Origin: Algicola sp.
GTDB taxonomy: Bacteria; Bacteroidota; Bacteroidia; Flavobacteriales; Flavobacteriaceae
DNA: 64,000 nt
NCBI GenBank assembly: GCA_018222915.1
Contig: JAAEZI010000002.1
Span: 92,653-156,652, forward strand
Direction of reading: 5' to 3'
Shown here: positions 18,302 to 28,696 of the stretch, piece by piece
Position numbering within the stretch: the first letter of the stretch is position 1
Layout: each line of letters starts with the position of its first letter
The notes under the pieces: generated by a model
The model's database searches: none
What the model saw: only the letters and a program-made list of their open reading frames with translations
Told to the model about the DNA's origin: nothing
Position numbers and translations under genes: made by a program

Positions 18302-19306
18302 TCAATTAAACTCAATTTCGTAATTTAATCTATTAGTGAGTGACCTTAATTGCTTTTTGGTCTTAAAAATATTAGAGAAAAGTGTGTGGCTCCAACCAAT
18401 TTGTTTTGAGAAATCATTGAATGACTCTTCTCTCCAATTAAATCCTTCTTTCCAAAATTTATTAGGCGAAATATAGCAAAACGTATAATCAAAAATAAAG
18501 CTCGATTCATTTTCATTAGACAGGCTAGCGATTGACTGTGGCGCCAATAAGGTGATATCATACTGCTTACAGCGCTCCCTAACAGCCCTAATCACTTCAG
18601 GGTAATCATTTGTTAAGGTGGAAATATCAAAGTCATTGTACTCGGTATTTCCGATTTTCTGAATGGGTCTGATTTGAAGAATATCAAAACTTTCCGGACT
18701 GAAATGCTTGAAAAATTCTTGCAACTCGTAAAAGTTGTCCTTATTAAAGGTGTAATTGATTCTAACCTTAAAATTATAAGTAGCTTTTAAGGCTTCAAAT
18801 GCCTTAAATGCATTGAGGAATTTTTCATAACTAGCCTTTTGCATAAAGCTTTCGTAACTCTCCTTAGTAACCCCATGTAGGGAAATTGTAAACTCATTAA
18901 GACCTGCTTTCAACAAGGCTTCAATTTTTTCCTCAGTAAGTAAATTGGCATTGGTTGTAATTGAAATATAAGGCACTTGATATTGTTTCCCTAAAGCGAC
19001 AATTTTTTCGAGATTCTTGTATAAGGTAGGTTCTGTTCCACAGCCTATTTGAAGTTTTAAAGCACGTTTAAATATGGCTTTTGCCACCAAATCTAAATCA
19101 TCAGGTTTAAATTGACCTTTTAGGGTTTTAACATAATCGGCATCCGTAAAATAACACATCTTACAACGCAAATTACAAGCCATCACAGGATCCAGGTTCA
19201 CAGCTAAATACCTTTTATTGAACTTGTGTAACAAAAAAAGCCCTAGAAACTTAATTCTATGGCTTTTTATTTTTCTATTGAGTTGTAATAGCTTGTAAAT
19301 ATTCAC
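18302..19306 (-). CDS. Radical SAM protein
   Basis: 334 residues. The iron-sulfur motif CxxxCxxC is C44-NLR-C48-KM-C51, followed by YF, as in the radical SAM superfamily; next come a glycine-containing SAM-binding stretch (LQIGCGTEPTLYKN) and a TIM-barrel pattern (YISITTNANLLTEEKI, EFTISLHGVTKESYE). Few other cysteines are present, so a full SPASM domain with auxiliary clusters is not evident. Substrate unknown. The gene starts 5 nt after trhO, suggesting cotranscription, but a terminator-like hairpin lies within codons 13-25 (19233-19268). Confidence 0.88.
   Translation of the reverse strand: MNIYKLLQLNRKIKSHRIKFLGLFLLHKFNKRYLAVNLDPVMACNLRCKMCYFTDADYVKTLKGQFKPDDLDLVAKAIFKRALKLQIGCGTEPTLYKNLEKIVALGKQYQVPYISITTNANLLTEEKIEALLKAGLNEFTISLHGVTKESYESFMQKASYEKFLNAFKAFEALKATYNFKVRINYTFNKDNFYELQEFFKHFSPESFDILQIRPIQKIGNTEYNDFDISTLTNDYPEVIRAVRERCKQYDITLLAPQSIASLSNENESSFIFDYTFCYISPNKFWKEGFNWREESFNDFSKQIGWSHTLFSNIFKTKKQLRSLTNRLNYEIEFN
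19233..19268 (-). terminator. Terminator-like hairpin inside the 5' coding region of the radical SAM gene
   Basis: On the minus strand AAAAAGCC-A-TAGAA pairs with TTCTA-G-GGCTTTTTTT around a TTAAGT loop, ending in a U-run. It lies about 40-75 nt beyond the trhO stop, where a trhO terminator would be expected, yet it encodes residues 13-25 of the next protein. Possible attenuator. Confidence 0.45.
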
Positions 19307-19311
19307 TGCAC

Positions 19312-20376
19312 CTATTTTTTAAGTGACTCAAAAATATTCCTGAGATCTTTTTTGAAAGGCAAATGATCTGCTCGTCCTTTTTTAAAAATGTCATTACTAT
19401 TGCCTTGTCCTTTTCTCAATGCTTTTTGCTCTTCGTAAGGAAGTCTATTGATTTCCAAGCAATTGGTAGAGCAACAATTTTCCATTTGAGCTTTACATTC
19501 TTCACACTGAATGAAAAGTAAATGACAAGCCTCGTTCGCACAATTAGTGTGCATATCTGCAGGCTTCCCACATTGATGACAGTTGGCAATAACGTCATCA
19601 CTAATGCGTTCAGAACGTCGTTGATCGAACACAAAGTTTTTTCCTATGAACTTATTCTCCAAATTATTCGCTTCAACCTGTCTCACATAATTAATAATGC
19701 CGCCTTCCAGTTGAAACACATTTTTGAACCCCTTGTGTTTGTAGTAAGCACTTGCCTTTTCACAGCGAATACCTCCTGTACAGTACATCACAAGATTCTT
19801 ATCTTCCTTGTGTTCTTTTAAATCCTCTTCAATTAAATCCAAGGACTCTCTAAACGTATCCACATCAGGTGTTACAGCATTTTTAAAATGACCTATTTCA
19901 CTTTCATAATGATTACGCATATCCACTAATACAGTATTTGGGTCTTCTATAAGCGTATTGAATTGTTCAGCACCAACATGAACACCTTTATTAGTCACAT
20001 CAAAAGTAGCGTCATTTAAACCATCAGCCACAATCTTATGACGCACTTTGACTTTCAATTTCAAAAAGGCAAAATTATCATGCTCTATGGCTATGTTTAA
20101 TCGCACATTTTCTAAAAAAGTAATCGTATCTAAATGGTTTTTAAAAGCTTCAAAATTATCTGCAGGTACAGAAAGTTGTGCATTTATGCCTTCGTTCGCA
20201 ATGTAGATTCTACCTAAAACGTCTAGCTCATCCCATGCTAAAAACATGTGGTTTCTAAAAATTTCGGTATTATTAATTTTGGCGTACTTATAAAAAGAGA
20301 TCGTTAAGCGTTCTTTTCCCGCTTTTTCGATGAGACTAGCTCTTTCTTCAGCACTTAAGTTATTGTACAGTTGCAT
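19312..20376 (-). CDS. trhO: tRNA uridine(34) hydroxylase TrhO (rhodanese domain)
   Basis: 354 residues. An N-terminal acylphosphatase-like domain (LGRIYIANEGINAQLSVP) precedes a rhodanese domain with the active loop C199-TGGIR-C205-EK, the arrangement of the YceA/TrhO family, which makes 5-hydroxyuridine at position 34 of certain tRNAs. The C-terminal third (about 260-310) is crowded with cysteine and histidine (CHQCGKPADMH, CEECKAQMENCCSTNC), a likely zinc-binding extension found in many family members. A consensus promoter lies upstream (20414-20442), just past a terminator. The radical SAM gene follows after 5 nt. Confidence 0.9.
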   Translation of the reverse strand: MQLYNNLSAEERASLIEKAGKERLTISFYKYAKINNTEIFRNHMFLAWDELDVLGRIYIANEGINAQLSVPADNFEAFKNHLDTITFLENVRLNIAIEHDNFAFLKLKVKVRHKIVADGLNDATFDVTNKGVHVGAEQFNTLIEDPNTVLVDMRNHYESEIGHFKNAVTPDVDTFRESLDLIEEDLKEHKEDKNLVMYCTGGIRCEKASAYYKHKGFKNVFQLEGGIINYVRQVEANNLENKFIGKNFVFDQRRSERISDDVIANCHQCGKPADMHTNCANEACHLLFIQCEECKAQMENCCSTNCLEINRLPYEEQKALRKGQGNSNDIFKKGRADHLPFKKDLRNIFESLKK

Positions 20377-20413
20377 GCTATACTAATGTTAAGGTTAAAG
20401 ATTATCTATGTTG

Positions 20414-20442
20414 CAAAGGTATTCTTTTTCAACAAATATCAA
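20414..20442 (-). promoter_or_regulatory. Bacteroidota-type promoter of trhO
   Basis: On the minus strand TTG (20440-20442), 18-nt spacer, then TACCTTTG (20414-20421), a match to the TTG / TAnnTTTG consensus of Bacteroidota housekeeping promoters. Transcription would start near 20407, about 30 nt before the trhO ATG. Confidence 0.65.
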
Positions 20443-20453
20443 ATGGATGACAT

Positions 20454-20488
20454 AAAAAAGCCCACTAGCTTTGCTAAAGGGCTTTTTT
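20454..20488 (-). terminator. Terminator ending the small minus-strand unit upstream of trhO
   Basis: AAAAAAGCCC (20454-20463) pairs with GGGCTTTTTT (20479-20488), with an inner AGC/GCT pairing. It is symmetrical and could act in both directions. As no large gene ends here, its presence implies a short transcript coming from the right. Confidence 0.8.
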
Positions 20489-20545
20489 GAGGACTAACTC
20501 GTTATTAATATTTTTAAAATGTTTGTCTTAAAAATATGGAACGAG

Positions 20546-20638
20546 TTAACCTCCATCGGCTTTACAATTACTGTTTATACCTACAGTAACTGAAACACCT
20601 AATGCGAAATTTAAAATAATTTTTCTAAAGAATCTCAT
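20546..20638 (-). CDS. Candidate 30-residue peptide
   Basis: ATG at 20638 to TAA at 20546. The product begins MRFFRKIILNFALGVSV, that is a basic start, a hydrophobic stretch of about 15 residues, then a short tail with one cysteine ending KADGG. A strong terminator lies 58 nt downstream and no longer gene occupies this strand, which supports a genuine short transcript. No family recognised. It could be a membrane micropeptide, a peptide precursor or a chance frame. Confidence 0.4.
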   Translation of the reverse strand: MRFFRKIILNFALGVSVTVGINSNCKADGG

Positions 20639-20688
20639 TTTCAAATAAGCATTAAATTTTTGGATATGCTTTATAGCCTTTGAGTCTC

Positions 20689-20786
20689 GGAAGTTACTAG
20701 ATTAACTGATTTTCTTGACTCAGTCGCGCTGCTTTTCTAGAAAAAGCACAAAGTCAATCAAATTCAGAAATGCTAGTAAAGCTTCC
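20689..20786. promoter_or_regulatory. Nested three-helix RNA structure candidate
   Basis: Outer stem: 20689-20700 pairs with 20773-20786 (12 bp, one 2-nt bulge). Middle stem: TTGACT 20715-20720 with AGTCAA 20752-20757. Inner hairpin: GCTTTT 20731-20736 with AAAAGC 20742-20747. It overlaps the 24-codon ORF on the minus strand, so it may regulate translation or transcription there. Confidence 0.45.
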
Positions 20787-20794
20787 TTTTTCAT
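20720..20794 (-). CDS. Candidate 24-residue peptide, preceded by a 7-residue leader frame
   Basis: ATG at 20794 to TGA at 20720 encodes MKKEALLAFLNLIDFVLFLEKQRD when read in full, a short amphipathic/hydrophobic peptide. Directly upstream a seven-codon frame MKKKLLN (20794-20817) ends in TAATG, so its stop overlaps this start by one base, the arrangement used for translational coupling. Both frames begin with a similar sequence because of a tandem repeat. The ORF is embedded in strong secondary structure. Only weak promoter-like sequence is seen further upstream. Could be chance. Confidence 0.3.
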   Translation of the reverse strand: MKKEALLAFLNLIDFVLFLEKQRD

Positions 20795-20817
20795 TAGTTT
20801 AAAAGCTTCTTTTTCAT
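20773..20817 (-). repeat. Imperfect tandem repeat of about 22 bp
   Basis: Minus strand ATGAAAAAGAAGCTTTTAAA... is followed directly by ATGAAAAAGGAAGCTTTACT..., giving two closely spaced start codons in the same sequence context. Confidence 0.6.
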
Positions 20818-20938
20818 AACAAGATTTCCCAATCTCAATTGGTAGATGCAAAAAGTTTAAAAAGGTTGCGTCTTAAGGTCAAAAAAATTAAAAGATGTTG
20901 TATTTTAGCTAACGTTTCAAATTAAAAATTACAGATAG

Positions 20939-21943
20939 ATGAGCAGTGAAAAAGACGCAAAATTAAAAGCATTAAAATTAACTTTAGATAAATTAGATAA
21001 GGCTTACGGAAAAGGAACAGTAATGAAAATGAGCGATCAGGCGGTCGTTGATGTAGATGCTATTCCGTCGGGATCCTTAGGACTCGACATTGCTTTAGGA
21101 GTAGGTGGATATCCTAGAGGACGTGTGATAGAAATTTATGGTCCAGAGTCTTCGGGTAAAACAACCTTGACTTTGCATGCCATTGCTGAAGCACAAAAAG
21201 CTGGAGGTATAGCAGCTTTTATAGATGCAGAACACGCCTTCGACAGAACCTATGCCGAAAAACTGAATGTGGATATTGATAACTTGATTATCTCTCAACC
21301 CGACAATGGTGAACAAGCACTTGAAATCACTGATAATTTGATTCGTTCCGGCGCTATTGATATTGTCGTTGTGGATTCCGTAGCGGCCTTAACACCTAAA
21401 AGTGAAATTGAAGGAGAAATGGGAGATTCCAAAATGGGATTACATGCCCGATTAATGTCACAAGCATTGAGGAAACTTACAGGTTCGATTAGTAAGACCA
21501 ACTGTACGGTTATTTTTATCAACCAATTACGTGAAAAAATTGGCGTTATGTTTGGGAACCCAGAAACCACAACAGGTGGAAATGCGTTGAAATTCTATGC
21601 ATCTGTGCGGTTAGATATTAGAAGGTCGACACAAATTAAGGAAACCGATGGCACTGTTGCTGGAAACAAAACCAGAGTAAAGGTCGTCAAGAACAAAGTC
21701 GCTCCACCATTCAAAATGTGTGAATTCGATATCATGTATGGTGAAGGGATTTCAAAAGTCGGTGAAATATTAGATGTGGCTGTAGAGCACGAAATCATTA
21801 AAAAGAGTGGCTCATGGTTTAGTTATGGTGACACGAAACTTGGTCAAGGGCGTGATGCTGTAAAATCTCTTATTAAAGATAATCCTGAGCTTATGGATGA
21901 ATTGGAAGAGAAAGTTCGAGCAATTATTAGTTCAAACGACTAA
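20939..21943 (+). CDS. recA: Recombinase RecA
   Basis: 334 residues, full length for RecA. Walker A is GPESSGKT at 68-75, Walker B is [10 protein letters not shown], and the conserved stretches [21 protein letters not shown] (loop L2 region) and LRKLTGSI are present. It forms the nucleoprotein filament for homologous recombination and activates SOS self-cleavage of LexA-type repressors where present. Monocistronic: a long intergenic region precedes it and a terminator follows at 21961. No LexA-type operator was recognised upstream, in line with the absence of a classic SOS box in many Bacteroidota. Confidence 0.98.
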
Positions 21944-21960
21944 AAAAACAATCGTGAAAT

Positions 21961-21990
21961 AAAAAAATCCCTCTTTTTGGGATTTTTTTT
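21961..21990 (+). terminator. recA terminator
   Basis: AAAAAAATCCC (21961-21971) pairs with GGGATTTTTTT (21979 onward) around a T-rich loop, followed by a U-run on the plus strand, 17 nt past the recA stop. Confidence 0.85.
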
Positions 21991-22067
21991 GCTTTTAGAC
22001 GCAACCATTGTATAAATTTTGCATCTAGTTATTGAAATCAACCGTATTTCAAAACCAAATTTTACAA

Positions 22068-22475
22068 ATGAAGAAGATTTTTATAATAAGTTTTTTACTG
22101 TTTTCCCTGTTTTCATGTAGTGTAGGAGACGATACGCCTAATTTCTATTATGAGATTTTGCCTGTGGAAAGTGTGGATATCCCTGATGAATTTCAGTTTG
22201 GAAGTGTTCATGAAATTTCCTTAACCTATTACAAGCCAACTGATTGCCATGTGTTTAACAATTTTTTTTATGAAACAGACCTCAACCAAAGAACTGTAGC
22301 TGTGGTGACTTCTGTGTATACCAATCAAAATTGTAATGATGTGAATAATCTTGAAGAGGTGTCTTTTAATTTTGAAGTTAACAGCTTTGAACCATACACT
22401 TTTAGATTTTGGCAAGGAACCGATGAAAACGGGAATGACACCTACTACATTGTTGAAGTACCTGTAGTAGAATAA
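22068..22475 (+). CDS. Hypothetical lipoprotein
   Basis: 135 residues from the ATG at 22068; an in-frame TTG at 22032 is rejected because this ATG gives a proper lipoprotein signal (MKKIFIISFLLFSLFSC, lipobox LFSC, lipidated C17). The mature domain is acidic and probably beta-sandwich-like, with two cysteines (DCHVFNNF and NQNCNDVN) that could form a disulfide. No family recognised. It directly precedes the ECF sigma gene (25-nt gap) and may be part of the same transcript, which would make it a candidate envelope component linked to that signalling pair. Confidence 0.75.
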   Translation: MKKIFIISFLLFSLFSCSVGDDTPNFYYEILPVESVDIPDEFQFGSVHEISLTYYKPTDCHVFNNFFYETDLNQRTVAVVTSVYTNQNCNDVNNLEEVSFNFEVNSFEPYTFRFWQGTDENGNDTYYIVEVPVVE

Positions 22476-22500
22476 TTAACTTTTAATAAAATCCAATCAT

Positions 22501-23043
22501 GTGAGTTTAGACCAACTCATAGAGCAGTGTAAAAAAAATGATGCTCAAGCACAAAGTCAACTATATAAGCTATACGCGAGTAAACTGTTTTCGATTTGCT
22601 TGAAGTATTCCCGTAATTATGCCGAAGCGGAAGATAATTTACAGGACGCTTATATCACGATTTTTAAAAAAATACATCAATTTAAAAGTCAAGGTTCTCT
22701 GGAAGGTTGGATGAAAAGAATTACGATTAATACGGCTTTGCAGCGCTACAGAAGTGCTGGAGTTTTTAGTATTGTCAATGAAGAACAAATTGAAGATGTT
22801 TCGGTGGAAGTTGAAGACAATCAGATGAGTCTTGACTTTCTTTTAAACATCATTCAAGAATTACCAGATCGGTATCGATTGGTATTTAATTTATATGCCT
22901 TAGACGATTATTCGCATAAGGAGATTGCAGACATGTTGGCTATTTCAACAGGTACATCAAAATCAAATTTAGCAAGAGCACGTTTGATTTTAAAAGATAA
23001 AATTGAAGAACATAAAGCGAGTCTCAACTCGCAAAGTTTATAA
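22501..23043 (+). CDS. ECF-family RNA polymerase sigma factor
   Basis: 180 residues starting with GTG at 22501 (an ATG one base earlier in phase runs straight into TGA). Sigma region 2 is visible in LYKLYASKLFSICLKYSRNYAEAEDNLQDAY and FKSQGSLEGWMKRITIN (-10 recognition), and region 4 in LPDRYRLVFNLYALDDYSHKEIADML followed by STGTSKSNLARAR, a helix-turn-helix for the -35 element. The stop overlaps the ATG of the next gene (TAATG), a strong sign of coupled synthesis of a sigma/anti-sigma pair. Regulon unknown; envelope stress is the usual theme. Confidence 0.92.
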   Translation: MSLDQLIEQCKKNDAQAQSQLYKLYASKLFSICLKYSRNYAEAEDNLQDAYITIFKKIHQFKSQGSLEGWMKRITINTALQRYRSAGVFSIVNEEQIEDVSVEVEDNQMSLDFLLNIIQELPDRYRLVFNLYALDDYSHKEIADMLAISTGTSKSNLARARLILKDKIEEHKASLNSQSL

Positions 23044-24647
23044 TGAGTGATAAAAAACATATAGACAAACTCTTTAAAGAGCAACTTAAAAATTTTGAAG
23101 TTGCTCCAGATGACGCTGTTTGGGAACGAATTGAGAAGGAACTCCACAAGGAAGATCGCAAAAAACGAATCATTATTCCTCTTTGGTGGAAAGTTGCTGG
23201 TGTTGCGGCCGCACTTGTAGTAATGTTTACCGTTGGAAACGCTCTATTCAATAAGAGTACTGATACCGTGCAACCTCAGGTTGGAGACACTAAAATTAAG
23301 ACAGATTCAAACGAGACGATTGGTAAAGACAAAAAAGATAAGGCAACAAATCAATTATTGTCGAAAGAAGCGACCGATGACGCAGTAGTTGAAAATAATC
23401 AAACGGAGTCTACAGATTCAAACACCTCAGAAAAAAGTTTTGACACTGAGGCTTTAACTAATGAAGCATCAACCAATAACCCTGTGACTAACACATCTGA
23501 AGATTCAAATAAGAACATAAATAAAAACCCGTCCATACTCAAGGAAAAAGCGTCAACGAAAGAGGCTGTTGCCAACACTAATTCTCAGAAGAAAGAGACG
23601 CAAAACTCCTTGAATAAAAGCCAATTACCTGTAAATAACACTGAGAAAAACAAGAAAAACTCCGTGGCCGTTTCAAAAGAAAATCAGAGTAAATCAACGG
23701 ATGACTTAAGAAAAGACCAATCAGAAATTGACAAATTACTTAAAGATTCAAAAAACGGGAAATCAACACAGGTCACAACTGCAAATAATTCTGAAACAGA
23801 ACATCAGCTTAAGACCATTGATTCGACTAAAGCTAGTCAAGCTCTGAAAGAAAAAAATGCCATTGAGGAGGCCATTGCAGATGCTGAAAAGTCAGAGGAT
23901 TCGATTGATAAAGCGGATATTCCGATGACCCGATGGAGTGTCGCACCCAATGTAGCTCCAGTGTATTTCAACACCTTAGGTAGAGGTTCTTCTCTGGATA
24001 ATCAATTCATTGATAATAATAAAGAAGGAGATGTGACTATGAGTTATGGTATCAAAGGGACGTACGCTATTAGTAAAAAATTAAGGATACGTGCGGGTGT
24101 ACACAAAGTAGATATGGGCTATACCACTGATAACATTTTAGTGTTTAATGATGCCAATGCTTCTGTTGAAAACGGCCGACTCTTGCAAAATATTAAACTG
24201 AATGACACGATGAATAACAATGCTTATGTAAGTGCCAATAGTGTGAGCTTTGCGTCTGGGCCAAATATTTTATCCACGAAAGAACAAGGTTCAATTGATC
24301 AACGTTTAGGTTTTATTGAAGTTCCTGTTGAAATTGAATACCAATTATTCAATAAGAAAGTTGGTGTGAATCTTATCGGTGGGTTTAGTACTCTATTCTT
24401 AAGCGATAATGAAGTTTACTCAGTACAAAATAATGGCAATAGAACGCTTATGGGAGAAGCCACTAATATTCGGGACATGAGCTACAGTGCCAATTTTGGT
24501 ATTGGTGTGAATTACAATTTTACGAGACAATTACAATTCAATCTTGAACCTACGTTCAAGTATCAAATAAATACCTTCAATAATACCGCTGGAGATTTTC
24601 AGCCCTTTTTTATTGGAGTTTATACAGGACTTAGTTTTAAGTTTTAG
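23043..24647 (+). CDS. Anti-sigma-like membrane protein with C-terminal outer-membrane beta-barrel
   Basis: 534 residues. Residues 1-42 are a charged cytoplasmic segment (LFKEQLKNFEVAPDDAVWERIEKEL) like short anti-sigma domains in Bacteroidota; 43-69 is a transmembrane helix (PLWWKVAGVAAALVVMFTVG). A low-complexity linker of about 225 residues rich in N, S, T, K and E follows, and from about 294 (MTRWSVAPNVAPVYFNTLG) the protein has alternating beta-barrel strands ending in an aromatic LSFKF, as in OmpA/OMP_b-brl-type barrels. One chain could thus span inner membrane, periplasm and outer membrane. Its start overlaps the sigma factor stop. The anti-sigma function is inferred from position and topology. 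Confidence 0.8.
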   Translation: MSDKKHIDKLFKEQLKNFEVAPDDAVWERIEKELHKEDRKKRIIIPLWWKVAGVAAALVVMFTVGNALFNKSTDTVQPQVGDTKIKTDSNETIGKDKKDKATNQLLSKEATDDAVVENNQTESTDSNTSEKSFDTEALTNEASTNNPVTNTSEDSNKNINKNPSILKEKASTKEAVANTNSQKKETQNSLNKSQLPVNNTEKNKKNSVAVSKENQSKSTDDLRKDQSEIDKLLKDSKNGKSTQVTTANNSETEHQLKTIDSTKASQALKEKNAIEEAIADAEKSEDSIDKADIPMTRWSVAPNVAPVYFNTLGRGSSLDNQFIDNNKEGDVTMSYGIKGTYAISKKLRIRAGVHKVDMGYTTDNILVFNDANASVENGRLLQNIKLNDTMNNNAYVSANSVSFASGPNILSTKEQGSIDQRLGFIEVPVEIEYQLFNKKVGVNLIGGFSTLFLSDNEVYSVQNNGNRTLMGEATNIRDMSYSANFGIGVNYNFTRQLQFNLEPTFKYQINTFNNTAGDFQPFFIGVYTGLSFKF

Positions 24648-24698
24648 GTTTTTTAGTTGGTTAGATAGTTATTGCAAACTTAATATGCAATGATGATG

Positions 24699-24731
24699 AA
24701 AAAGCTGCTCTGTGCCAAGAGCGGCTTTTTT
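24699..24731. terminator. Bidirectional terminator between the barrel protein and plsC
   Basis: AAAAAGC-GCTCT pairs imperfectly with AGAGC-GCTTTTTT across 24699-24731, with A-run and T-run flanks, so it can serve both convergent genes. It touches the plsC stop codon. Confidence 0.75.
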
Positions 24732-25458
24732 ATTGAGTTAATTGTGCTAAAAGAAGCTGATGCGCTTTTGCATTTATGCTTTTTGTATCTTCTATAGTGA
24801 GGTCTTTCGTAGGAATAAAAGTATGTACCTTCACTCTCATAGGTCCGGGTCCTCCACTGAAAAACGTATAAGAAAACCGCTTTTTATTATCCATGAATGT
24901 AATAGGAACAATAGGAATCTGATGATTAATTGCCATTCGAAAAGCACCGTCTTTGAAATCATCAAGTATGATGTGTTCATCTGGCACACCACCTTCAGGG
25001 AAAATACAAATACTCATGCCCTGTTTTAACCGTCTTTGTGCTCTTAAAAATACGGCTTGCCTACTTTTCGCACTACTTCTATCCACTAAAATACTCGTAC
25101 GCTTATAGAAAAACCCAAATAAGGGTATTTTTGCCAATTCTTTTTTACCAACAAACACAAATGGATTTTTCACCGTAACTAACATGAGCATTATGTCGGC
25201 CATAGAAGTGTGGTTTGCAATAAACATATAGCTTTTATCAGGTTGTGGTGATTGTTCTCGTTGAATTTTGACACGAAACCCCATTCCAAATAGAATAAAG
25301 CGCGCCCATAATCTAGCTAATCTAAAAAAGAAGGGATACCTCGATTCTTTTAATATGGAAATCACTAGTATGGGAAGGAGTATGATAATTGGTATGGCTA
25401 CCAAAACATAGAACCATATACGATAGAAAACCCAAAAGACTTGTTTAAATAGCTTCAT
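24730..25458 (-). CDS. plsC: 1-acyl-sn-glycerol-3-phosphate acyltransferase
   Basis: 242 residues from the ATG at 25458 (an in-frame TTG three codons upstream is less likely). N-terminal hydrophobic segment at about 8-36, then the acyltransferase HX4D motif H83-TSMA-D88, and the substrate-binding FPEGGVPDE motif about 70 residues on. The product transfers an acyl chain to lysophosphatidic acid at the inner membrane to make phosphatidic acid. Length and motif spacing fit the PlsC family. Convergent with the beta-barrel gene and divergent from trpS. Confidence 0.9.
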   Translation of the reverse strand: MKLFKQVFWVFYRIWFYVLVAIPIIILLPILVISILKESRYPFFFRLARLWARFILFGMGFRVKIQREQSPQPDKSYMFIANHTSMADIMLMLVTVKNPFVFVGKKELAKIPLFGFFYKRTSILVDRSSAKSRQAVFLRAQRRLKQGMSICIFPEGGVPDEHIILDDFKDGAFRMAINHQIPIVPITFMDNKKRFSYTFFSGGPGPMRVKVHTFIPTKDLTIEDTKSINAKAHQLLLAQLTQ

Positions 25459-25505
25459 AGGGCTCAAAACTACTTAAATTAATTCAACATTTCTATTAAA
25501 AAAAT

Positions 25506-25513
25506 TACCTTTG
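25506..25513 (+). promoter_or_regulatory. -7 element (TAnnTTTG) upstream of trpS
   Basis: TACCTTTG at 25506-25513. No good TTG at the -33 spacing. A start near 25520 would give a leader of about 50 nt to the chosen ATG at 25572. Confidence 0.45.
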
Positions 25514-25571
25514 CTGACGATATAAGTTGAATGAACAATTAAATTTATTTCCGCTTTTGCGGCAAACGGTC

Positions 25572-26540
25572 ATGGCAAGAATACTCACCGGCATACAAAG
25601 TACAGGAACACCACATCTAGGTAATATTTTAGGCGCAATTTTACCAGCTATTGAAATGGCGAACGATTCAAAAAACGAGTCGTATCTTTTTATTGCGAAT
25701 TTGCACACCCTAACACAAATCAAAGATGCTGCATTATTAAGACAACACACCTATTCTGTTGCAGCTACTTGGTTAGCTTTCGGTTTAGACATTAATAAAA
25801 CAGTGTTTTACAGACAGAGTGATATTCCACAGGTAACTGAATTGGCTTGGTATTTAGATTGTTTTTTTCCATTTAAACGACTGAAGCTAGCTCATGGCTT
25901 TAAAGATAAAGCAGATCGGCTGGATGATGTGAATTCAGGTCTTTTTATGTATCCAATGCTTATGGCTGCAGATATCCTTTTATACGATGCAGATATCATC
26001 CCAGTAGGAAAAGATCAATTACAACACATAGAAATGACGCGGGATGTTGCCACTCGTTTTCATGCCAAAATGGGAGAAACTTTTGTTTTACCTGAAAGTA
26101 AAGTACAAGAACAGACCAAATTAATTCCTGGTACCGATGGTGAAAAAATGAGCAAGAGTAGAAATAACTTTATCAATATATTCTTACCAGAAAAAAAATT
26201 ACGAAAACAAATCATGGCTATCGAAACCGATAGTACTCCGTTAGAAGAGCCTAAAGACTGGCGTACTTGTAATTGCTTTGCTTTATATAAATTATTGGCT
26301 TCTGAACAGGAGATTGAAACGATGGTTTCCAATTATGAAAATGGTGGTTACGGCTACGGCCATGCTAAACAAGCCTTGTTTGAATTGATTTTAGACAAAT
26401 TTAGCGTACAACGCGAGCGTTATGATCATTATATGAATCATCTAAATGAACTCGATGACGCTCTTGCCATTGGTGCGGAAAAAGCAAAAATCGTCGCTAA
26501 TGATGTTCTTGATCGTGTGCGTTCAAAAGTTGGTTATTAA
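25572..26540 (+). CDS. trpS: Tryptophanyl-tRNA synthetase
   Basis: 322 residues from the ATG at 25572 (MARILTGIQSTG), the usual family N terminus; a start at 25527 would add 15 residues with no family counterpart and leave almost no leader behind the promoter element. The class I signatures are TGTPHLGN (11-18, HIGH equivalent) and KMSKS at 192-196. It charges tRNA-Trp with tryptophan. Convergent with dprA, with 12 nt between the stop codons. Confidence 0.95.
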   Translation: MARILTGIQSTGTPHLGNILGAILPAIEMANDSKNESYLFIANLHTLTQIKDAALLRQHTYSVAATWLAFGLDINKTVFYRQSDIPQVTELAWYLDCFFPFKRLKLAHGFKDKADRLDDVNSGLFMYPMLMAADILLYDADIIPVGKDQLQHIEMTRDVATRFHAKMGETFVLPESKVQEQTKLIPGTDGEKMSKSRNNFINIFLPEKKLRKQIMAIETDSTPLEEPKDWRTCNCFALYKLLASEQEIETMVSNYENGGYGYGHAKQALFELILDKFSVQRERYDHYMNHLNELDDALAIGAEKAKIVANDVLDRVRSKVGY

Positions 26541-26552
26541 TCGTTTTTACAG

Positions 26553-27656
26553 TCAAACCAATTCAAACATTTTTCCTGGAAGTGGTCTCACAATACCTTT
26601 GAGCTCCATTTGCAATAGTAAACTGGCCACTTTATAAATGGGCAGTTGGGATTCTAATGCAATAACATCAAGTAATTGTGGCGCACCATTTTTCATGGCT
26701 TCAGTGATTAACTTTTCCTCTGTGGTTAAGGCTATAAACAGTTCTTTTTGAATGGTTGGTTGCTTCTCTGAACCTACTTGCCAATTGAGCATGTAAGGAA
26801 TATCTAACGGGTTTGAAAGTAGGTGAGCCTGTTGTGTTTTAATCAGATTATTACATCCAATACTCTGGTTATCAGTTACGCGACCTGGAACCGCAAAAAC
26901 GTCGCGGTTATAAGAGTTGGCAATATCTGCAGTGACTAAGCTACCACCCTTTTCAGCAGATTCAATAACGATTGTGGCCTCGCTAACACCAGCAATGACG
27001 CGATTTCGTTTTAAAAAATTATTGCGATCAAAGGTATCAGAACTCCAAAAATCAGTGAGAAATCCACCATGCTTTTCAACATCTACCATATATTTTTTGT
27101 GAACTTTCGGATAAATTTGATTCAACCCATGTGCTAAGCACCCAATAGTTTGTAGCTTATTTTTAATGGCAAATTTGTGTGCTGAAATATCTGTTCCATA
27201 GGCAAATCCGGACACAATTATTGGATTAAATGGCGCCAATTCTTCAACCAATCTTTCACAAAACATGACGCCTTGTTTGGTTATATTTCTAGTGCCTACA
27301 ATACTAATTATGGGATCATCTTTAAGTCTCACATTTCCCGCTTGAAACAAAAGAATTGGTCCATCAATACAATGCTTTAAACGAGCTGGATAATCGTCAT
27401 CCCTAAAATATAAACACTTAATCTGATTGTCATGAATAAATTGAAGCTCCTGCTCTGCCGCTTTTAAGTGCGCTTTATTGGTGAGCTTTTTTATGGTATT
27501 GATTCCAATCCCATTAATACTTAAAAGATTGGATCGCTTCTCTTTTAATACGGATTCGGCAGAGCCGCAATGTTCAATCAGTTTTTTAGCTGAAATATCA
27601 CCTATTTTAGGAATGTGCTGTAGCGCCAAGACATAGAGTAATTCAGTATCTGTCAT
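26553..27656 (-). CDS. dprA: DNA-processing protein DprA
   Basis: 367 residues. An N-terminal helix-hairpin-helix/SAM-like region (ALQHIPKIGDISAKKLIEHCGS, LLSINGIGINTIKKL) precedes the Rossmann fold with IVGTRNITKQG, SGFAYGTDISAHKFAI and the EKGGSLVTADIAN loop; a short winged-helix domain (LLDVIALESQLPIYKVASLLLQMELKG) closes the protein. DprA loads RecA onto incoming single-stranded DNA during natural transformation. No other competence gene is adjacent, and recA lies 5 kb away on the other strand. Confidence 0.94.
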   Translation of the reverse strand: MTDTELLYVLALQHIPKIGDISAKKLIEHCGSAESVLKEKRSNLLSINGIGINTIKKLTNKAHLKAAEQELQFIHDNQIKCLYFRDDDYPARLKHCIDGPILLFQAGNVRLKDDPIISIVGTRNITKQGVMFCERLVEELAPFNPIIVSGFAYGTDISAHKFAIKNKLQTIGCLAHGLNQIYPKVHKKYMVDVEKHGGFLTDFWSSDTFDRNNFLKRNRVIAGVSEATIVIESAEKGGSLVTADIANSYNRDVFAVPGRVTDNQSIGCNNLIKTQQAHLLSNPLDIPYMLNWQVGSEKQPTIQKELFIALTTEEKLITEAMKNGAPQLLDVIALESQLPIYKVASLLLQMELKGIVRPLPGKMFELV

Positions 27657-27744
27657 TTTATAGTATATTTTCTATATGCAATAAACAATATTTCCCTTGT
27701 TAATAAATACTTATCACGATGTTTTATTCACATCAAAAAAATTT

Positions 27745-27752
27745 TAACTTTG
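27745..27752 (+). promoter_or_regulatory. -7 element (TAnnTTTG) immediately upstream of the SPOR gene
   Basis: TAACTTTG at 27745-27752, only 5 nt before the chosen ATG at 27758. If used, transcription would begin at or next to the start codon (leaderless message). Confidence 0.4.
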
Positions 27753-27757
27753 TTTTT

Positions 27758-28696
27758 ATGCAATTAGAAACTTACATAGGTGATTTGTTATATAGATATG
27801 ATTGTGTGACTGTGCCACAGTTTGGAGCATTTTTAACACATCGTGTTTCAGCTAAGGTTCATGAGACGACACATTCATTTTATCCTCCAAAAAAGGCTTT
27901 GTCCTTTAATGAGCAATTACAACATAATGATGGGCTTTTAGCAAGTTATATTGCTCAAATTGAAAAAGTTCCTTATGAAGTCGCTGTAGAAAAAATCGCT
28001 AAGCAAGTCAAAGCTATAAAATCTTATCTCATTGCGGGAGAAACGATTGCCTTTGATAATATTGGTGATTTAATTTTGAATACCGAAGGAAAAGTTAATT
28101 TTGAACCTTCACATCATATCAATTATCTGACGGATGCTTTTGGACTTTCTCAATTTTCAACCAAAGACATTACAAGAGAAGTTTACAAGGAGCAAGTTGA
28201 AGCGTTAGAAGACGCCATTCCAATCACAGTGACTCCTCAAAAACGTCGCAACAGACCTTATTTAAAATATGCTGCCATTGCACTCATTGCTCTAACTATT
28301 GGCGGTTTTACGGCTTCAAATTACTATGTAAATCAAATAGAGAGTCACAATCAAATAGCACAAGAAGAAGCCAATCAGCAATTAGATACTAAAGTACAAG
28401 AGGCAACCTTCGTTATTGACAATCCGTTGCCTGCGGCCACGCTTACCGTCGAAAAGCCATCTGGTAATTACCACATCGTAGCTGGTGCCTTTAGAATTGA
28501 AGCGAATTCAGATAAAAAAGTACAGCAACTTAGAGACCAAGGATTTAAAGCTCGTAAGATTGGTAAGAATAAATATGGGCTTCATGAAGTCGTGTATTCT
28601 AGCCATGTAGATCGTATTGAAGCTTTAGAAACGCTCAGATCTATCAAACGCTCACACAATTCGGATGCGTGGTTACTTGTGAAAGCTTTAGATTAA
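27758..28696 (+). CDS. SPOR-domain membrane protein with N-terminal HU/CCDC81-like domain
   Basis: 312 residues from the ATG at 27758 (MQLETYIGDLLYRYDCVTVP); the longer frame from 27719 adds an AT-rich, unlikely extension. Residues 1-150 resemble the CCDC81-like HU domains of Bacteroidota (VPQFGAFLTH, FNEQLQHNDGLLASYIA, FDNIGDLILNTEGKV). A transmembrane helix follows at about 168-188 (YAAIALIALTIGGFTAS), then a linker and a C-terminal SPOR domain (YHIVAGAFRIEANSDKKVQQL ...). SPOR domains bind denuded peptidoglycan at division sites, so this protein probably links a cytoplasmic DNA-binding-like domain with septal wall. Confidence 0.87.
   Translation: MQLETYIGDLLYRYDCVTVPQFGAFLTHRVSAKVHETTHSFYPPKKALSFNEQLQHNDGLLASYIAQIEKVPYEVAVEKIAKQVKAIKSYLIAGETIAFDNIGDLILNTEGKVNFEPSHHINYLTDAFGLSQFSTKDITREVYKEQVEALEDAIPITVTPQKRRNRPYLKYAAIALIALTIGGFTASNYYVNQIESHNQIAQEEANQQLDTKVQEATFVIDNPLPAATLTVEKPSGNYHIVAGAFRIEANSDKKVQQLRDQGFKARKIGKNKYGLHEVVYSSHVDRIEALETLRSIKRSHNSDAWLLVKALD

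Follow-up and report, generated by a model that had tools for sequence, protein, structure and literature searches.

The window analyzed here is a stretch of 64,000 nucleotides from a genome of Algicola sp. (Flavobacteriaceae; contig JAAEZI010000002.1), and its subject is a group of three plus-strand genes encoding a small lipoprotein, an extracytoplasmic function (ECF) sigma factor and a protein of 534 residues, which is predicted to be an anti-sigma factor of the envelope-spanning Dma type (Table 1). The group is flanked by recA (20939-21943) on one side and by an acyltransferase-like gene on the opposite strand on the other. The stop codon of the sigma gene (TAA, 23041-23043) shares one base, an A, with the ATG of the Dma gene, so that the overlap of stop and start already noticed in a sequence-only reading of this DNA amounts to a single position, 23043. 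For comparison, the best 80 of 295 stretches encoding a relative of the 534-residue protein were taken from the named genome collection, all of them close, full-length matches; together with the copy of the window's own genome (L001), they constitute the 81 loci referred to below. A relative of the sigma factor is encoded directly upstream of the Dma gene in 80 of 80 relatives, the distance between the two genes being −1 at 36 of the 81 loci and ranging from −11 to +10 across all of them. The lipoprotein gene, preceded by a common promoter, was found upstream in 79 of the 80 relatives, and recA is present at the locus in 75 (two of the remaining five, L017 and L051, end at a contig edge). Gene order and shared promoter thus back the earlier suggestion that the lipoprotein may be a third part of the system. 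Among the open reading frames (ORFs) in 19000-28000, whose products were assigned by eye, the neighbors were recA, the lipoprotein gene, the acyltransferase-like gene and a gene resembling Trp-tRNA ligase, and none encoded a TonB-dependent receptor beside the sigma and anti-sigma genes. Tandem repeats were not found in 22000-25000.

Table 1. Features of the three-gene group and of the region divergent from recA (positions in the window).
Feature	Position	Strand	Basis and remarks
Lipoprotein gene	22068..22475	+	135 residues, all-beta model; 79/80 relatives; window copy matches no Pfam family
ECF sigma factor gene (Das-like)	22501..23043	+	180 residues, GTG start; Pfam; 80/80 relatives
Dma-type envelope-spanning anti-sigma gene (predicted)	23043..24647	+	534 residues; layout, conservation, model, fold matches
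Cytoplasmic anti-sigma-like segment, residues 1-44	23043..23174	+	Conservation; two low-confidence model helices
Single transmembrane helix, residues 48-69	23184..23249	+	Hydropathy; model helix
Disordered periplasmic linker, residues 70-292	23250..23918	+	Low pLDDT, poor conservation
8-stranded outer-membrane barrel (predicted), residues 298-532	23934..24638	+	OMP_b-brl matches, model, Foldseek
Predicted ECF-type promoter CGCAACC-N16-ATCT of the lipoprotein-sigma-Dma operon	22000..22026	+	81/81 loci
Second promoter copy, divergent from recA	20844..20870	−	Window and 67/80 relatives
Predicted short transcript, terminator-like hairpin upstream of trhO	20450..20837	−	Start inferred from promoter
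Possible 30-residue peptide ending NCKADGG, stop included	20546..20638	−	Pattern in 34/68 loci

The 534-residue protein is conserved at its two ends and variable in between. When 52 of the 81 Dma proteins (the window protein included) were aligned, the frequency of the majority residue was 0.71 in residues 1-44, 0.66 in 45-68, only 0.30 in 69-290, and again 0.66 in 291-534. Five residues of the N-terminal segment (F18, P22, W27, I30 and L34) are invariant. The 19-residue window of strongest hydropathy starts at residues 42-51 in all 81 proteins; in the window protein it reaches 2.1 at the predicted helix compared with a best value of 1.0 elsewhere (≤1.48 across the 81). Conserved segment, hydropathy peak and model helix are consistent with a short anti-sigma-like segment followed by one inner-membrane helix, as had been proposed from the letters of the sequence. 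The linker comprises ∼224 residues in the window protein, in good agreement with the ∼225 low-complexity residues counted before. K, N, S, T, E and D are abundant in it, and its length is 170-280 residues at the 76 of the 81 loci that show the end marker. In the structure model (mean predicted local distance difference test score, pLDDT, 60.7), values below 50 were obtained for residues 70-224 and 236-270, and helices are present in the linker only at 223-237, 263-268 and 273-287.

Between residues 298 and 532, the model contains eight long strands (≥13 residues each), with block means of 81-95 over most of 301-520, dips to 53, 71 and 74, and values of 65 and 51 for the last strand. Foldseek matched this C-terminal part to OmpA (best E value 2.6e-6), OprG, OmpW, Ail and NspA, and also to the 10-stranded Pla/OmpT, which is why the strand count of eight rests on the model. 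The family OMP_b-brl was matched at E ≤ 0.01 by 39 of the 52 aligned proteins (best 5.1e-9), and the C-terminal residue is phenylalanine in 81 of 81. The window protein itself stays below the Pfam cut-offs (21.3 versus 27 bits for OMP_b-brl_2 and 17.7 versus 28.7 bits for OMP_b-brl), and a search of solved structures by sequence alone yielded nothing useful for either the barrel or the anti-sigma segment. The bounds proposed for the barrel, residues 290-534, hold, and at the level of the fold it is best described as a predicted eight-stranded, OmpA-like one.

The sigma protein contains Sigma70_r2 and r4_2 above the Pfam cut-off and matches SigW, SigE and sigma-E in the PDB. The lipobox cysteine of the lipoprotein is residue 17, and 72 of 80 copies of the protein satisfy a simple lipobox rule; cysteines 60 and 89 do not vary among 32 aligned copies and would fit a disulfide. 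In a fold search, no structure matched the lipoprotein with E ≤ 0.001, and PADLOC matched neither the lipoprotein nor the Dma protein.

Upstream of the operon, the sequence CGCAACC-N16-ATCT is present at 81 of 81 loci, always with a spacer of exactly 16 bases although 76 different spacer sequences occur; alternative spacings of 10 to 23 bases were each found at 0 or 1 loci. As the pattern was derived from the locus sequences themselves, this count is descriptive, and the real test is the frequency of the motif in other genomes, for which the reversed pattern served as the control. In 22 genomes of the same genus, the motif occurred 196 times versus 12 for the control. In a survey of 120 genomes of the family, a Dma profile match (E ≤ 0.001) was present in 104, and 103 of these contained the motif (482 occurrences versus 46 for the control; 1.34 versus 0.13 per megabase). 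Of the 16 genomes without a Dma match only two contained it (2 versus 5; 0.06 versus 0.15 per megabase). No description of this promoter, or of a flavobacterial Dma regulon, was found among the open-licence papers listed by the literature searches.

Which genes might be transcribed from the motif was assessed in six genomes with 40 further sites, of which 38 were read: five of the seven in G001 and every one in G000, G005, G006, G012 and G017. At 34 of these 38, the first gene encoded a protein with an export signal, 16 by the lipobox rule and 18 otherwise; five of the latter are a lipoprotein whose TQC box escaped the rule. By a similar rule, 13 of 49 ORFs of the window carried an export signal; the rule is simple, and start codons were picked favoring a signal for targets and background alike. 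The start codon follows the motif by 4 to 34 bases at 23 of the 36 sites with an ORF and by 142-143 bases at the six SusC-like genes. Judged by eye, several targets recur: the TQC lipoprotein in five of six genomes, a SusC-like receptor gene in six of six, a long secreted protein with TDVSIVAQAQ or TDLSIVAQAQ after its signal in four (perhaps five) of six, and lipocalin-like lipoproteins. The expectation that the system works without a separate TonB receptor holds for the signaling chain as drawn, but a SusC-like receptor is among the predicted targets in every genome inspected.

A second copy of the promoter diverges from recA in the window and in 67 relatives, that is, at 68 loci. A GCTATG-type element follows ATCT by 22 to 25 bases at 61 of these, and a terminator by a strict rule precedes trhO at 48, the window copy failing the rule with its imperfect stem. 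The short transcript predicted between promoter and hairpin may encode a peptide: at 34 of the 68 loci, a product of 28-30 residues with some form of CKADGG at its end is encoded, and a search with this pattern gave none at the remaining 34. Pairwise differences at the three codon positions of the 32 peptides with 30 residues were 3250, 2573 and 5130, a distribution expected of coding sequence, although pairs of this kind lack independence. Over the transcript, Rfam yielded a single match far below threshold (24.1 bits versus a gathering score of 440), and the peptide, queried as 29 residues without its first methionine, had no match in Pfam or NCBIfam. Downstream of trhO lies a radical SAM gene (18302-19306, minus strand), for which the 25 best NCBIfam matches listed all score well under the cut-offs; a link of this gene with the peptide may be considered.

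Searches with the Dma profile covered Bacteroidota genomes; a restriction of Dma proteins to this phylum is stated in PMC13088901. Sixty of 296 sampled genomes gave a match. Of these, 28 belong to the family of the window, not counting the genome of the window itself, and many of the distant matches span one end of the protein only. In three stretches from other Bacteroidota families (L215, L216 and L222), the same sigma-Dma pair was found with overlapping genes and a sigma identity of 39 to 43 percent, and a stretch from the same genus (L218) carries a second pair with 50 percent sigma identity; in all four, both ends of the protein match the Dma protein of the window and the sigma gene is adjacent. 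The remaining stretches are less clear: L221, which is cut, matches in its N-terminal part alone; the match of L223 is weak (E value 0.007); L220 has a weak N-terminal match and no sigma ORF; and in L219 a clear match and a sigma ORF are both absent. The second Dma-type protein of L218 (1455-2609) is shorter, with 384 residues and its own sigma factor, and several genomes of the genus likewise have a second match of this kind. In the draft genome from which the window comes, there is one full Dma match, and a second Dma-type match was not found. On contig C84 of this genome (L217), a sigma gene is paired with one for an anti-sigma factor of 270 residues, which resembles the N-terminal part and the linker of Dma and has no barrel.

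Two well-known systems offer themselves for comparison. In cell-surface signaling of the FecR/FecA type, a surface signal reaches an ECF sigma factor via an inner-membrane anti-sigma factor, and the receptor is a separate, TonB-dependent outer-membrane protein. Unlike there, the predicted barrel and the anti-sigma-like segment form one chain here, and the locus has no separate receptor gene. RseA is a one-helix anti-sigma factor of sigma-E, whose regulon consists of envelope genes and, in Escherichia coli, also includes small RNAs. The one-helix anti-sigma factor and the envelope-gene regulon have their likeness in the system predicted here, whereas RseA has neither a barrel nor a linker long enough for the envelope. 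Much closer is Dma of Bacteroides thetaiotaomicron, for which the published description gives an N-terminal anti-sigma domain, a transmembrane helix, a long disordered tether, a C-terminal barrel and an adjacent ECF21 sigma factor (PMC13088901). By this described architecture, both Dma1/Das1 and Dma2/Das2 resemble the pair of the window. According to the same report, loss of Dma2 results in more vesicles and additional loss of its sigma factor restores the wild-type profile; the dma2 operon also has a further gene, and genes for surface proteins are among those affected, as predicted here (PMC13088901). In the flavobacterial system, in contrast, the extra gene encodes a small lipoprotein outside any Pfam family, the locus of most relatives follows recA, and the operon has a predicted promoter of fixed form. 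The notion that a single polypeptide may span the envelope, raised in the sequence-only reading, thus fits both the predicted anatomy and the published Dma model (PMC13088901); having been published for the Dma family, it is not new. What is added here is a flavobacterial member with a predicted promoter, a predicted regulon and a short transcript. Flavobacterium psychrophilum is also pertinent, as its yceA (trhO) and a regulatory RNA have been assigned to an ECF-type motif whose −10 region differs (PMC9723704). This motif, SM6, likewise concerns flavobacterial promoters for envelope genes, but it is not the ATCT motif; its candidacy as the same promoter was set aside since its −10 region, as given there, is a CGT box (PMC9723704).

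Gene order, domain layout, the barrel-type model, promoter conservation, the joint occurrence of motif and protein among genomes of the family, and the export signals of the first genes were all established by computation. With a probability of roughly 0.8, we consider the 534-residue protein to be a flavobacterial anti-sigma factor of the Dma type, the sigma factor being held by its N-terminus, the tether crossing the periplasm and the barrel residing in the outer membrane, and the sigma factor driving a regulon with the promoter CGCAACC-N16-ATCT. Sigma binding, topology, signal, release step and the reading of the motif by the adjacent sigma factor are what we infer, and by analogy with the Dma work they may be pictured as follows. 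Residues 1-44 would hold the adjacent ECF sigma factor at the inner membrane, one helix would pass through that membrane, the disordered tether would cross the periplasm, and the eight-stranded barrel would be embedded in the outer membrane. The barrel would sense a change there, be it a ligand, a failure of barrel assembly, lipoprotein load or stretch, and the tether would relay it by force or by proteolysis, whereupon the sigma factor would be freed. The sigma factor would then transcribe its own operon, including the lipoprotein gene, from CGCAACC-N16-ATCT, and in addition the genes for surface lipoproteins, the SusC-like receptor and secreted proteins as well as the short transcript beside recA.

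Three other explanations were weighed. The barrel could be a mere anchor, or a passenger with a role of its own, attached to an ordinary inner-membrane anti-sigma factor that is cut by periplasmic proteolysis in the manner of RseA. That the linker is long and unconserved would suit such a protein, as would the barrel-less pair of the same genome; barrel and anti-sigma segment, however, are conserved about equally (0.66 and 0.71), and both are fused in 81 of 81 proteins, although this last point counts little since the best full-length matches had been selected. On balance, we regard a barrel without a part in signaling as unlikely. It is highly improbable that the C-terminal domain is a periplasmic or soluble beta protein that never enters the outer membrane: phmmer searches with this part alone did give weak matches to fatty-acid-binding proteins only (best E value 0.077), but eight long strands, fold matches to outer-membrane proteins, the OMP_b-brl matches of most aligned relatives and the universal terminal phenylalanine oppose it. 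Somewhat more weight, while still not probable, is given to the motif being read by one or several other ECF sigma factors and driving the Dma operon incidentally, as the genome carries thirteen other ECF-like matches, any of which might read it. Against this, the motif precedes the Dma operon at every locus and is enriched within the family only in genomes with a Dma match; also, the base preceding ATCT is C or T at 37 of the 38 sites read, with the proviso that the pattern required ATCT, so that CGT-type sites could not appear.

Besides the competing sigma factors, several observations weigh against a Dma-type anti-sigma factor with the regulon proposed. The model helices 4-16, 24-35 and 48-69 are of low confidence (block means 47-71), the N-terminal segment belongs to no Pfam family and reaches the NCBIfam model "antisigma" far below threshold only (15.4 versus 100 bits), and its profile matches no solved anti-sigma chain. 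At two of the 38 target sites there is no ORF, and at two there is no export signal. As to the motif, up to two sites per genome may flank the Dma locus itself; one genome (G438) has the Dma protein and lacks the motif, and one genome counted as having Dma is a weak case (G357, 9.6e-5). The genomes without Dma are also smaller (mean 2.03 versus 3.45 megabases), which makes co-loss possible. Outside the family, there is no excess of the motif even where Dma is matched (G035, G036, G039 and G046: 2 versus 3 for the controls), and all nine stretches examined for distant pairs lack it; the promoter can thus not characterize all Dma systems.

Going beyond the Dma-type anti-sigma factor and its promoter, one may tentatively ask whether Dma and its sigma factor constitute a general outer-membrane stress response of the Flavobacteriaceae, a single barrel-to-cytoplasm chain that switches surface lipoproteins, a SusC-like receptor and secreted proteins from a fixed promoter. 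The dedicated short transcript beside recA, acting either as a small regulatory RNA or through an envelope peptide of 30 residues, would then correspond to the small RNAs of the sigma-E response. We consider this conceivable, with the odds somewhat against it. In the literature found, experiments on envelope-spanning anti-sigma factors are confined to B. thetaiotaomicron. The presence of profile-level relatives across a family (104 of 120 sampled genomes), together with a concrete promoter and concrete targets, would make sensing by Dma addressable in free-living bacteria by means of a promoter reporter, and it is the predicted regulon and the short transcript that are worth following.
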